Assembly: GCF_003986975.1 (NCBI RefSeq)
Contig: NZ_PIPO01000002.1
Span: forward strand, 124,001 to 188,000
Reading direction: 5' to 3'
Length of the DNA: 64,000 bases
DNA from: Aliidiomarina soli
GTDB lineage: Bacteria > Pseudomonadota > Gammaproteobacteria > Enterobacterales > Alteromonadaceae
Within the stretch, counting starts at the first letter, position 1. The number at the start of each line of letters is the position of its first letter. The notes below the pieces were generated by a model, which was given only the letters and a program-made list of their open reading frames with translations, ran no database searches and had not been told where the DNA came from. The position numbers and the translations under genes were made by a program. Shown here in pieces: positions 1,013 to 4,420 of this stretch.

Positions 1013-2776
1013 TTACTGCGCGGCTTCCTGCAGGTAGCGCTGGATATTGGCTTCCAGTGTTTGTAACGGCACACTGCCATTTTTGAGGATCTGGTAGTGG
1101 AACTCACGAACATCAAAGTCATTACCCAGCTGCTCTTCAGCCAAAGCTCGCAGTTCTTTGATCTTCAGAGCACCTAGTTTGTATGACAACGCCTGGCCTG
1201 GCCAGCTGATGTAGCGGTCAATCTCGGTGTTGACGTTATGCATCGACAAGGCGGTGTTGCTGGCCATGTACTCAACCGCACGGTCACGGCTCCAGCCCAT
1301 GGTGTGCATGCCAGTGTCGACAACCAGACGAGCAGCGCGCCACATTTCGTAGGTTAAGCGTCCAAAGTTGCTATAGGGGTCTGTGTAGAAGCCCATTTCG
1401 AGCCCCAGATACTCAGCGTACAGTCCCCAGCCTTCGCCGAATGCGGAGATGTAGATTTCACGGCGGTACTCAGGTAACTGGTCCATTTCCTGAGCCAGTG
1501 CAATTTGCAGGTGATGGCCTGGAACGGCCTCATGCAAGGTCAGGGCTTCCAGTTCATACAGCGGCCGACGGTCCAGCGCGTAGGTATTAACCCAGTAGAA
1601 GCCCGGCTGGTCATCGCGATTGGCTCGGACATAGCGGCCGGTGGTGTAATTGGGGGCTATTTCCGCTGGAACCGGCTCGACCCCATACGGCGTGCGCGGC
1701 AAATGTCTGAACAAGGCGGGTAACGCAGCATCGGCCCGTTTGGCAATGTAGGCGGCTTCGCGCAGTAATTCCCCGTCACTGCTGGCATAGAACTGGTCGT
1801 CGCTGCGCAGGAACTGAATAAATTCAGCAAAACTGCCGTCGAAACCGACTTCTTCGATAACCTCACGCATTTCAGCGCGAATACGGGCCACTTCATCAAG
1901 CCCGATCTGGTGAATTTCTGCCGGCGTTAAGTCGGTGGTGGTGTAGTGCTGCGCCCGGTTGGCATAAAAGCGCTCACCATGTGGCAATGCTGTCGCTGCT
2001 ATAGAGCGCCGCGCATTGGGCAGATACTCATTTTGCATGAAATCATAGAAGTCCTGATACGCGGTATTCACCTCGGTGGCAATGAGGGTCTGCGCTTCCA
2101 TTTCGAATTCACCGTACTGCTGCTCACTTAGGTGTGACGAGCGCTGTGCGAAAGGCCGATAAAAAACGCTTTCTCTGGGGTCTCCGGTGACGTAGGACTG
2201 AATACCATCAGTGAACCCTGAAAGCACAATCGCAGGTTGGGTAATACCCTGCTCGATGCCTTGACGCATATAGTCCATCTGCTGCTCGAAGTAGGCCGGA
2301 ATGGCACGCAGTTGTTGCAAATGATTTGCGTAGTCCTGTTCGCTGACGAGCTGTGCTTGCCCAGCTAAACTGGCAATGGCACTGTGGAAACCAAATTCGT
2401 TGGTTAGCGGCATCAGGTGCGCATTGAATTCATATTGATCAATGTCATTGGCCAGACTGTACATGATCATGTCGCGGTTAATACGGTTTTGAATACTGAG
2501 TGTGCGCGCATCAATGGCTTCAAGTTGCTGAAAAAACTCAAGGCGCTGAGCATGCCGCTCAGCGAGTGCCTGAGGCGAAATGTCCAGTAACCCGTCCTGA
2601 GGGTGGCGCTGCTCTTTCTGATAGTCCCAGGCCTGCTGAGCGAGACTGGTAAATGCTCGGTCAGGGTGACTTTGAGTCTGAGATTGAGCCTGATTAGATT
2701 GAGTTGAAGGCGACGGCGTGGTACCGGCGCAGGCGCTAAGCATCAATACCGAAGCGGCGACGAGAGAGAGGCGCAT
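1013..2776 (-). CDS. DUF885 family zinc metallopeptidase-like lipoprotein
   Basis: This 587-residue protein starts with a lipoprotein signal (LSAC lipobox near residues 13-16), so it is probably anchored in the envelope. A low-complexity Ser/Gln linker follows. Near residue 415 lies HEAVPGH, the HExxH-type zinc site of the DUF885 family, and about 30 residues later GEGWGLYAEYLG supplies the probable third-ligand glutamate. The family belongs to the gluzincin-like peptidases; substrates are mostly unknown, so a role in peptide scavenging is inference. AAGGAG lies just before the ATG. It is single, with a 660-base gap upstream and a shared terminator downstream. Family assignment is strong, function is not. 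Confidence 0.88.
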   Translation of the reverse strand: MRLSLVAASVLMLSACAGTTPSPSTQSNQAQSQTQSHPDRAFTSLAQQAWDYQKEQRHPQDGLLDISPQALAERHAQRLEFFQQLEAIDARTLSIQNRINRDMIMYSLANDIDQYEFNAHLMPLTNEFGFHSAIASLAGQAQLVSEQDYANHLQQLRAIPAYFEQQMDYMRQGIEQGITQPAIVLSGFTDGIQSYVTGDPRESVFYRPFAQRSSHLSEQQYGEFEMEAQTLIATEVNTAYQDFYDFMQNEYLPNARRSIAATALPHGERFYANRAQHYTTTDLTPAEIHQIGLDEVARIRAEMREVIEEVGFDGSFAEFIQFLRSDDQFYASSDGELLREAAYIAKRADAALPALFRHLPRTPYGVEPVPAEIAPNYTTGRYVRANRDDQPGFYWVNTYALDRRPLYELEALTLHEAVPGHHLQIALAQEMDQLPEYRREIYISAFGEGWGLYAEYLGLEMGFYTDPYSNFGRLTYEMWRAARLVVDTGMHTMGWSRDRAVEYMASNTALSMHNVNTEIDRYISWPGQALSYKLGALKIKELRALAEEQLGNDFDVREFHYQILKNGSVPLQTLEANIQRYLQEAAQ

Positions 2777-2884
2777 GGTGACTCCTTTAAACGGGTTAAT
2801 CGCAACGTCATACTATCAAAACATTGATTGTACGCTTAATTAGCGTCAGGTTGCGACCCTGAGAGTAGTTTTATACCTTCGGTC

Positions 2885-2912
2885 TTTACACAAATTTAAC
2901 GAACGGTAATAA
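2885..2912 (+). promoter_or_regulatory. Possible promoter of the ncRNA candidate
   Basis: TTTACA (2885-2890) and TAATAA (2907-2912) are 16 bases apart, on the same strand as the downstream hairpin series and terminator. A start near 2919 would give a transcript of about 440 nt. By eye only. Confidence 0.3.
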
Positions 2913-2918
2913 GAAACG

Positions 2919-3357
2919 CGTTTTTTATAGCAATAAAGTTGTTGATACTCTGCTCAAAAACCGTAACCTAGGACTCCATAAAGCGTGCTGGCCAGATGAA
3001 AGGTTAATCATTTGTTGGCTTATCTTTTTCAAGCACCAGCACCAATAACAAAAATAATAAAAGCTATAAAAATAAGAATTATAAGAATTATAAAAAGTGC
3101 AGTAAAAAGCGCGCAGATTAAACAAGGAAGAATAATAACGCCAGGAGGCGACATATAAGTTAACCATGGGATGTGGTCGACGTGCCAACAAAGGGATGCA
3201 CAGCAGTTACTGTAGCGCATCGACAATAATAATGGCTAAAAGCTTACAAGACGTAATAACAATAATAACTACGAAAGTAGCGACAACAGTTCTCGAAACA
3301 CCTTAGGGTGCATTGGGTTCAAGTAAGGCGATGAAAGCAATTTCATCGCCTTTTTTA
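2919..3357 (+). ncRNA. Candidate structured small RNA (CsrB/CsrC-like?) upstream of yihI
   Basis: No convincing protein is encoded in 2777-3436. The plus strand has A-rich linkers and compact hairpins: CGCC-AGGA-GGCG (3139-3150), ACCA-TGGGATG-TGGT (3163-3177), GATGC..ACAG-CAGTTA-CTGT..GCATC (3195-3221), CTAC-GAAA-GTAG (3269-3280), CACC-TTAG-GGTG (3299-3310), then a 12-bp terminator stem. Two loops present GGA and further GGA triplets lie at about 2970 and 3125, the kind of site CsrA binds. In E. coli, csrC lies between yihA and yihI; here the same two genes flank the area, with two genes inserted. The 5' end is a guess. There are fewer GGA motifs than in E. coli CsrB/C, so it could be another sRNA or a long yihI leader. 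Confidence 0.45.
3325..3357 (+). terminator. Strong intrinsic terminator before yihI
   Basis: A perfect 12-bp stem AAGGCGATGAAA / TTTCATCGCCTT closes on a GCAA tetraloop (337-340 of this kilobase) and runs into TTTT. It ends about 80 bases before yihI and follows no protein gene, which implies a separate upstream transcript on this strand. Confidence 0.9.
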
Positions 3358-3436
3358 TTTTCTCTGCGCAAATTCACTGCTCTGAATGCCCTTATGCGTT
3401 ACCATATAGCAAGATAGTTATAGTGAGGTACGGATA

Positions 3437-3952
3437 ATGACCCGCCGCAAAAAAACACGAAAACAAGGTCCGCTGGGCGTGAAGTCTCAGCCCAAAAATT
3501 TACGTGAACATGGTGCCACCGACAACAGCAAAAAGCCGCAGCGCAGCAAAGGTAAGCCCGCCGGCAACCGGCACGCCGAAGGCGCCGCAAAATCACCTGC
3601 TGCCACTGCAGCGTCGCGCCAGAACGATCCGAGAGTAGGAAGTAAACGTAAGATCCCATTGAATGCAGCGTCACCAGCGCCAGTCACCGCGAAAAAAGCA
3701 GCCGCTGAACCGCTGTCGCCTGAGCAGGAGTTTGCCGCGCTGGAAGAGAACGAACGGTTACAGACACTGTTAGCCAAGCTGGATGATGGCAAAGCGTTAA
3801 CTGCTGAGGACCAACAATGGGTGGATCGCCAGTTAACCCGCTACCGGGCTCTTGCGGAAAAACTGGGGATCGACCTCGAGGACGACGATGATGACAGTGA
3901 CGACGATTTAGAGCCGTGGCAACGTTTTGAAAACCCGAAAGACTGGGTATAA
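3437..3952 (+). CDS. yihI: YihI, GTPase-activating protein for Der
   Basis: This 171-residue, highly charged protein has the YihI layout. A basic, Lys/Arg-rich disordered N-terminus (MTRRKKTRKQGPLGVKS) is followed by an Ala/Pro/Lys-rich stretch. A short helical core near 105-147 contains LxxLLAKLDDGKALTAEDQQ, and an acidic tail is rich in Asp. In E. coli YihI binds the tandem GTPase Der/EngA, stimulates GTP hydrolysis and so tunes late 50S assembly. GAGG lies just before the ATG. The gene is followed after 12 bases by a DUF2489 gene, an arrangement also found in related gammaproteobacteria. EngB, another ribosome-assembly GTPase, lies in the same neighbourhood. Confidence 0.93.
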   Translation: MTRRKKTRKQGPLGVKSQPKNLREHGATDNSKKPQRSKGKPAGNRHAEGAAKSPAATAASRQNDPRVGSKRKIPLNAASPAPVTAKKAAAEPLSPEQEFAALEENERLQTLLAKLDDGKALTAEDQQWVDRQLTRYRALAEKLGIDLEDDDDDSDDDLEPWQRFENPKDWV

Positions 3953-3964
3953 CAGGAGAAAGCA

Positions 3965-4420
3965 ATGGTTTGGTTAGCATTGATTGTAGGTAGTATTATT
4001 ATTGCGGCATTGGCGTACTACGCAGGTTCGCTGTTAGCACAATTGCGGCGTCAACGGCAGATCCGGGATACGGCCATCGGCAAGCGCAATAGTAATCTTT
4101 TTGAGAGCATCGAAACGATTGCATTAGCCATGCAGCAGGAACAATGCCCGCTATCCGAAGGGTCATTGCGGCTCACGGTGTTACTTGACCATCTCGCCTT
4201 GCCGGGCGATAAAACCTATGAGCAGGACTACCCTGCAATCCATGATATGTATCACCGGATCAAACACATGCCGACCCACGAAGCGCGCAAGCAGCATCCG
4301 AAAAAGGATATTCGTGAAATGGACCGAGAGCGCGAAGGGTATGAAGTGGAGTTGGCAGAGCCGATTCAGAAAGATATCAGCGCGCTGCTGGTATGGGTTC
4401 GCCGACAGCGCGCTGGTTAG
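3965..4420 (+). CDS. DUF2489 membrane-anchored protein
   Basis: This 151-residue protein has one N-terminal membrane helix (residues 3-25), then a basic segment (RRQRQIRD) and a cytoplasmic-type helical domain with FESIETIALAMQQEQCPLSEGSLRL, the signature of DUF2489. The family has no known biochemical role. It follows yihI by 12 bases with AGGAG between them, so the two are surely co-transcribed. In related genomes hemN often follows, but here the next gene is a convergent amidohydrolase. Confidence 0.87.
   Translation: MVWLALIVGSIIIAALAYYAGSLLAQLRRQRQIRDTAIGKRNSNLFESIETIALAMQQEQCPLSEGSLRLTVLLDHLALPGDKTYEQDYPAIHDMYHRIKHMPTHEARKQHPKKDIREMDREREGYEVELAEPIQKDISALLVWVRRQRAG

Follow-up and report, generated by a model that had tools for sequence, protein, structure and literature searches.

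In its RNA targets CsrA favours a GGA placed in a short hairpin loop; E. coli CsrB carries 22 GGA, and the base-pairing sRNA McaS is proposed as a CsrA antagonist (PMC7652899). CsrC is credited with 11 CsrA sites (PMC7366521). CrcZ, for its part, has six A-rich stretches that can be bound by the distal face of Hfq, the Kd being about 7.4 nM; CrcZ and mRNA compete for that protein (PMC5501646). By motif content, the RNA described below is CrcZ-like with one CsrA-type hairpin added, and it lies at the csrC position.

A small-RNA gene between DUF885 and yihI

The window is the whole 64,000-nt stretch of contig NZ_PIPO01000002.1, and by window RNA we mean the RNA gene at 2977-3357 (+ strand) within it. 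The gene lies in a 660-base gap (2777-3436) bounded by the start of a minus-strand DUF885 gene on one side and by yihI on the other, both assigned with Pfam. Its neighbours are:

1-138, - strand: start of engB, partial; translation ending FLTSAPDIRKLPA, an EngB N-terminus by eye
265-897, + strand: cytochrome c gene, syntenic marker (Pfam Cytochrom_C, E 2e-23)
1013-2776, - strand: DUF885 gene, separating the cytochrome gene from the RNA gene (Pfam DUF885, E 4.5e-169)
3437-3952, + strand: yihI, syntenic marker (Pfam YihI, E 5.3e-35)

The gene order is therefore engB (by eye), cytochrome gene, DUF885, RNA gene and yihI, with two extra genes, and the first-pass annotation of this DNA had correctly placed yihI directly after the gap and engB two genes away; the 46 aa of the minus-strand reading at 1-138 gave zero matches to Pfam and NCBIfam models. 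We take the cytochrome c gene to encode a cytochrome c4. DUF885 splits it from the RNA gene here and is absent from that place in six related-genus loci; because the end of the cytochrome gene lies upstream without DUF885 in 6/6 of these, DUF885 looks like a lineage-specific insertion in Aliidiomarina. A search for tRNA and tmRNA genes found none.

Comparative evidence shows that the gap is occupied by an independent small-RNA gene, with the following parts:

2942-2969, + strand: sigma-70-type promoter TTGATA-N16-TAACCT, same layout across 17 genus genomes
2977-3357, + strand: small RNA gene, ~380 nt, from promoter and terminator; start placed 7 nt past the -10 box
2985-3042, + strand: predicted 5' stem GUGCUGG/CCAGCAC with inner hairpins (minimum-free-energy fold)
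3139-3150, + strand: hairpin CGCC-AGGA-GGCG, candidate CsrA site, kept in 14/17 genus genomes
3163-3177, + strand: hairpin ACCA-UGGGAUG-UGGU, GGA in the loop (from sequence)
3195-3221, + strand: hairpin GAUGC...GCAUC; stem shared with G010, while G005, G008 and G011 pair through different stems
3269-3280, + strand: hairpin CUAC-GAAA-GUAG (from sequence and position)
3280-3296, + strand: conserved block GCGACAACAGUUCUCGA 5' of the terminator; GCGACAA in 16/17 genus genomes
3325-3357, + strand: intrinsic terminator with 12-bp stem, GCAA loop and T-run (stem-loop and T-run at 3325-3352)

The sequence signals suggest that this RNA is transcribed. Pattern matching identified a promoter of the form TTG-N18/19-GTAAYCT, or something close to it, in 14 of the 17 genus genomes, and in the remaining three it was recognised by eye, with a variant -10; the promoter TTGATA-N16-TAACCT was not among the predictions listed by a generic promoter scan. 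The 12-bp GCAA-loop terminator of the first-pass annotation is exact, and a terminator of the same type stands upstream of yihI in 17/17 genus genomes. When nine of its pairs were checked in 15 distinct sequences, 100% of cells were paired and three pairs had changed on both sides. The annotation had further suggested a transcript of about 440 nt ending at 3357: the end agrees with the terminator, and the length is shortened by the promoter to ~380 nt. Similarly, the span 2777-3436 given for the feature holds for its RNA part, and 2777-2976 is flank and promoter.

The gap DNA itself finds matches at E <=0.01 in 14/17 genus genomes, own genome counted, and the RNAs range from 287 to 685 nt over the 17 genomes, whose clades were aligned separately. 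The + strand of 2920-3360 folds at -98.2 kcal/mol (z -2.05), beating 99 of 100 dinucleotide shuffles, a modest predicted excess. The claim that the gap holds no credible protein is sustained: its longest ORF is 48 aa and no ORF is conserved by eye. A protein-coding reading was rejected, since the ORFs of congeners are unlike one another in length and sequence. Nor is it at all likely that we are looking at a leader or attenuator of yihI instead of a separate RNA. The strand is the same and the terminator is ~80 nt upstream of the start codon, as such an element would have it; nonetheless, another gene stands between the RNA and yihI in several relatives, and the terminator is strong and conserved.

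The csrC position and covariance models

Overall, we consider the presence of a structured RNA gene at the csrC position, as the first-pass annotation proposed, well supported by homologs upstream of yihI in every one of the 17 Aliidiomarina genomes read and in six from two related genera, by synteny and by model matches. The comparison with the Rfam CsrB and CsrC models put forward in the first pass came out negative. At the gathering threshold, Rfam gave zero matches in the whole window. A permissive scan of 2000-4200 gave eight weak matches, including CrcZ (E 2.6) and CsrC (E 3.1), which served as leads; the other six were taken as chance. The CsrC model RF00084 (gathering score 61 bits) reached 10.7 bits in the window, on the terminator only, and at best 30.0 bits, under the gathering score, in congeners; the CrcZ model RF01675 (gathering score 95 bits) gave 11.8 bits (E 2.6) for the window RNA. 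The own genome holds no CsrB or CsrC model match at cut-off, and the sole RF00018 (CsrB) match in it lies elsewhere.

That match, outside the window at G000:C8:4438-4667 (L080:939-1168), is a CsrB candidate with 28.6 bits to RF00018 (cut-off 71), 14 GGA in ~230 nt and a strong terminator; a similar candidate is present in G010.

Covariance models built from relatives extend the comparison. Seven other genomes of the family, which we take to be Alteromonadaceae, have a homologous RNA in the interval from the cytochrome gene to yihI, an interval that in six of them also contains one further gene. Model R1, built from these seven RNAs, matches at least 148 of 196 family genomes at E <=0.01, some of the weaker matches being false. 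Both YihI and R1 were searched in 17 non-genus family genomes, and 14 have both (G019 and G027 gave no R1 match, G020 no YihI match); in 14/14, seven of them not used for building R1, the best R1 match lies ~0.9 kb or less upstream of yihI on the same strand. In an alignment of 31 family sequences (30 of them distinct), paired cells make up 96.1%, compared with 38-52% when partners are slid, and 19/31 pairs have changed on both sides; the alignment was fitted to the model, which favours the pairing figure. A second model, R2, matches at least 76 of 295 genomes of the order at E <=0.001. Stricter filters applied whenever more than 40 genomes were searched, so genomes with no match may still hold the RNA.

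The order-level R2 matches inspected come chiefly from families f6, which is presumably Shewanella-like, and f18, which we take for enterobacteria. Eight R2 matches fall in f18, and the seven that were retrieved all coincide with Rfam CsrC matches, of which six exceed the cut-off and one scores 53.7 bits; the eighth genome, G050, has a CsrC-type match below cut-off. In three enterobacterial loci (L129, L130, L132) the gene lies, by eye, between EngB-like and YihI-like ORFs. In f6, 21 genomes have an R2 match, and of six loci retrieved, four (L137, L138, L139, L142) have the cytochrome gene just upstream. Through these overlaps with Rfam CsrC in f18, and the GGA enrichment in five of the six f6 loci, the two models tie the family RNAs to CsrC. 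Many of the yihI-adjacent RNAs of Alteromonadaceae and Shewanella-like bacteria look like csrC orthologs on these comparisons. Regardless of what the RNA binds, it is a widespread covarying gene beside yihI in both groups, under the Rfam CsrC cut-off in the relatives searched.

In the own genome, R1 ranks the window RNA best genome-wide (27.2 bits, E 0.0019), and the next-best match, at 17.5 bits, covers the terminator end of the model only. At the same time, the covariance-model scores of the window RNA are weak (27.2 and 25.9 bits), and model score as sole evidence was rejected: R1 matches at 29.4 and 30.5 bits occur away from yihI (L163, L164), one of them apparently in a coding gene. By eye, L163 overlaps an apparent acyl-carrier-protein gene with a strong terminator, and one R2 match, L144, sits inside a coding gene. 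R1 and R2 also match CsrB candidates, L083 with 29.8 and 26.4 bits and others with 16-26. Because the two models fail to separate CsrB from CsrC, it is position, not score, that carries the case, and we infer the homology of the Aliidiomarina form to CsrC mostly from position.

The same evidence bears on the possibility that an RNA of other origin replaced CsrC at this site, in which case the A-rich linkers would be spacers and the partner another protein. The weak scores would fit, as would the R2 result that in five of the 17 genus genomes (G003, G004, G009, G012, G015) the best genome-wide match is elsewhere. So would a stem found in 12 genomes of clades B and C, closed around a symmetric A-rich internal loop with GAKAAAAAG-like sequence on each side, for which we know of no counterpart. 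Its structure was drawn by eye from the very sequences counted, and in the 11 aligned (alignment A4, from which G001 was dropped for a large insertion in the hairpin) 11/11 pairs changed on both sides and 93.3% of cells pair, compared with 30-44% when slid. Nonetheless, the csrC-position RNA is the best genome-wide R2 match in the remaining 12 of the 17. The shared gene order, cytochrome gene-RNA-yihI, speaks against replacement too, as does G110, from a related genus, where the order is cytochrome gene-RNA-other gene-yihI as in six of the seven Alteromonadaceae. Replacement therefore strikes us as improbable. Against six loci of the related genera (g50, g52), R2 gave 22.7, 22.6, 16.3 and 16.2 bits in four, and in the other two either no match or a fragment. 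The internal-loop stem, of which L039:2125-2175 (- strand) and L037:2212-2261 (- strand) are examples, is absent from the clade to which the window belongs.

Two published RNAs were considered and set aside. The predicted CsrC of S. oneidensis, between mutM and SO_4727, has four AGGA/ARGGA motifs and is transcribed independently of BarA/UvrY; by this description it is another locus (PMC3171408). The Pf1 sRNA of Pseudoalteromonas, like CsrB (RF00018), is a protein-binding RNA of related bacteria, but its 21 GGA set it apart from the window RNA, and identity was rejected for this GGA-dense CsrB type (PMC9927453). Among titles and abstract openings on CsrB/CsrC, Hfq, Idiomarina and Aliidiomarina, which cover the literature in part, there was no published account of this RNA. 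A 2006 paper reportedly predicted CsrA-regulating RNAs, and an earlier published prediction of this one may exist.

Motif content of the RNA and its relatives

The strongest signal in the window RNA, absent from the first-pass annotation, is a set of five A-rich tracts of merged AAnAAnAA motifs, given here with their mean predicted unpaired probability:

3044-3060, + strand: A-rich tract 1, AAUAACAAAAAUAAUAA, 0.95
3068-3078, + strand: A-rich tract 2, AAAAAUAAGAA, 0.90
3128-3138, + strand: A-rich tract 3, AAGAAUAAUAA, immediately 5' of the AGGA hairpin, 0.79
3225-3232, + strand: A-rich tract 4, AAUAAUAA, 0.90
3255-3268, + strand: A-rich tract 5, AAUAACAAUAAUAA, 0.90

In the full-length window RNA, AAnAAnAA occurs 12 times against 1.7 expected, with 0/500 shuffles as high, and GGA 4 times against 4.2 expected. 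The full-length RNAs of the genus behave alike: AAnAAnAA reaches p <=0.05 in 16/17 and GGA is enriched in 0/17, with G012 and G015 poor in AAnAAnAA at full length (2 and 4, respectively). Across the 64 kb window, the 300 nt of the + strand at 3044 hold 12 AAnAAnAA, and the next-best 300 nt on either strand hold 4. Motif bases are predicted to be unpaired with a mean of 0.89, compared with 0.52 for all bases, in the 381-nt window RNA (0.81 against 0.51 for a fold with four extra bases), and with means of 0.72-0.93 against 0.42-0.55 overall in the 17 genus genomes.

For the last 300 nt before the terminator, the group counts (observed/expected, the expectation coming from dinucleotide shuffles) are:

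f18 CsrC (n=7): GGA 14.6/9.5, enriched in 7/7; AAnAAnAA 0.3/0.3
f6, Shewanella-like (n=6): GGA 12.5/7.6, enriched in 5/6; AAnAAnAA 2.5/0.4
f15/f21 (n=2, L144 dropped before counting): GGA 11.0/8.1; AAnAAnAA 3.5/0.9
Alteromonadaceae, best-scoring loci (n=30; L097, identical to L096, dropped from 31): GGA 7.2/4.6, enriched in 11/30; AAnAAnAA 6.0/1.3, enriched in 24/30
Aliidiomarina (n=17): GGA 4.2/4.7, enriched in 0/17; AAnAAnAA 7.9/1.3, enriched in 15/17

Controls gave GGA 14.0/7.5 and AAnAAnAA 0/0.1 for the CsrB candidates of the own genome and G010 (n=2), 21/12.7 and 0.5/0.5 for two other CsrB candidates, and 8/8.2 and 11/0.7 for one Rfam-found CrcZ (396 nt). In six loci of the two related genera AAnAAnAA numbers 7-12 (p <=0.003, enriched in 6/6) and GGA is enriched in 0/6. 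Twenty lower-scoring family loci, including the two matches away from yihI counted as false, are mixed (GGA enriched at p <=0.05 in 11/20, AAnAAnAA in 10/20).

The window RNA resembles CsrC (RF00084) in its engB-yihI position, as a discrete gene with a G+C-rich terminator, in the graded model matches through relatives, and in having GGA in hairpin loops, two such hairpins in its case. It differs in content: the seven CsrC loci have 12-16 GGA per 300 nt and 0 or 1 AAnAAnAA each, whereas the window RNA has GGA at a background of 4 and carries A-rich tracts. With CrcZ (RF01675) of Pseudomonas it shares a length near 400 nt, several A-rich stretches and, in the one CrcZ compared, strong AAnAAnAA enrichment with GGA at background. 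CrcZ is located by cbrB, is transcribed under the control of CbrB with sigma-54 and acts together with Crc; the locus of the window RNA is a different one, with DUF885 and yihI as neighbours and the sigma-70-like promoter TTGATA-N16-TAACCT.

Taken together, the loci compared appear to grade from GGA-rich CsrA sponges through mixed Alteromonadaceae RNAs to a CrcZ-like profile in Aliidiomarina and the two related genera. One possibility, which we put at somewhat better than one chance in three, is that the csrC locus switched partner in place, from CsrA decoy to Hfq decoy, by way of intermediate Alteromonadaceae RNAs that titrate both. If so, a single gene position would show the stepwise conversion of a decoy RNA between two global regulators. 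The AAnAAnAA motif need not mean lost CsrA binding, because the Alteromonadaceae RNAs carry it along with enriched GGA.

The RNA of the Alteromonadaceae loci in alignment A2 (L085-L114, L045) shows a pair of hairpins of the AGGA type and a GGGAGAAGUGUC stretch. It also has a stem that closes an A-rich loop; this loop is strongly conserved and, in the seven model sequences, can be parsed into consecutive A-R-N triplets.

Hairpins, conserved block and candidate partners

Both GGA-loop hairpins noted in the first pass are present. The AGGA hairpin is missing from G012, G015 and G016; in the 14 genomes that keep it, the loop is constant save for one AGGAA, and the stem is CGCC/GGCG nine times, AGCC/GGCU, UGCC/GGCA and CGCU/AGCG once each, and imperfect in two, so that stem changes mostly keep pairing. 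A hairpin GGCC-AGGA-GGCC occurs in both g50 genomes. From this pattern the AGGA-tetraloop hairpin is clearly under selection, and therefore a single CsrA contact remains likely. The hairpin at 3163-3177 is invariant across the five clade-A genomes and hence offers no covariation evidence; the hairpin preceding the terminator was judged by eye, being out of register in alignment A5.

How much CsrA binding this leaves is the issue on which the strongest of the rivals turns; below it we rank, in order, the base-pairing sRNA, replacement of the gene and a leader of yihI. A diverged CsrC could still titrate CsrA through a handful of sites, namely the AGGA tetraloop, the hairpin with GGGA and one or two GGA elsewhere. 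Its csrC position, the AGGA hairpin in 14/17 genomes, and the 12 bases of that hairpin (CGCCAGGAGGCG), identical in the Rfam CsrC consensus and in L129, L130 and L132, all argue for it, as do the 7.2 GGA per 300 nt (4.6 expected) of the Alteromonadaceae RNAs at this position. In addition, folding predicts that, among the GGA outside the AGGA hairpin, those at 3126 and 3169 are mostly unpaired and the one at 3194 mostly paired. However, GGA is at background in 17/17 genus genomes and 6/6 related-genera loci, the AGGA hairpin is lost in 3/17, and the own genome has a separate GGA-rich CsrB candidate. We also found no convincing UvrY box (TGTAAG-N6-CTTACA) upstream of the RNA gene, the best score over 17 genomes being 9/12 positions and that in the window 7/12; the own CsrB candidate itself scores only 8. 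On balance this reading is unlikely, though by no means negligible, and the CsrA-titrating function suggested in the first pass is not supported as the main one; what survives of it is one conserved AGGA hairpin as a candidate CsrA site.

Confronted with these counts, we favour, at very nearly an even chance, an Aliidiomarina form of the CsrC-locus RNA that is now mainly an Hfq distal-face decoy with one CsrA site kept, because its content is CrcZ-like with one CsrA-type hairpin and both Hfq and CsrA are encoded in the own genome. We take the two proteins to resemble those of E. coli, including the SIYLVNGIKLQGQ stretch of Hfq. Binding of the window RNA to both would work as follows. Five (AAn) tracts without structure would each sit on the distal face of an Hfq hexamer, which binds A-rich RNA, and the proximal face could be taken by the U-rich tail of the terminator. 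Strong transcription of the RNA would then leave less free Hfq, as CrcZ does in Pseudomonas, and the conserved AGGA-tetraloop hairpin would still hold CsrA, such that the RNA may connect both regulators. These marine bacteria would in this way gain a CrcZ-like control of Hfq. As a counterpoint, the single-stranded A-rich segments may serve only as spacers that stay unfolded. McaS-type sRNAs offer a further likeness in possible dual binding of Hfq and CsrA with few GGA sites, McaS itself being short.

The A-rich tracts and U-tail would also suit an sRNA of the Hfq class-II type that acts in trans by base pairing, loaded by its tracts on the distal face and regulating particular mRNAs, perhaps via the conserved GCGACAA(C/T)..GUUCUCGA block. 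The conservation of GCGACAA in the genus, and of a related block, GACAAC(C/A)(A/G)TTCTC, with the same terminator type in 6/6 loci of the two related genera, exceeds what a decoy needs. But class-II sRNAs are usually shorter and have one such A-rich tract, and ~380 nt with five tracts goes beyond that; judged by eye, moreover, the 3' portion of the block is able to pair with downstream sequence. We therefore regard a base-pairing sRNA as rather doubtful.

A minor observation concerns the interval between the RNA terminator and yihI in G012 (L049), which has ~400 extra bases containing, by eye, two near-identical copies of a GCGTCCCTCACGGGGCC...CCCAGCCTCGG unit; this extra DNA is perhaps a small mobile or repeat element.
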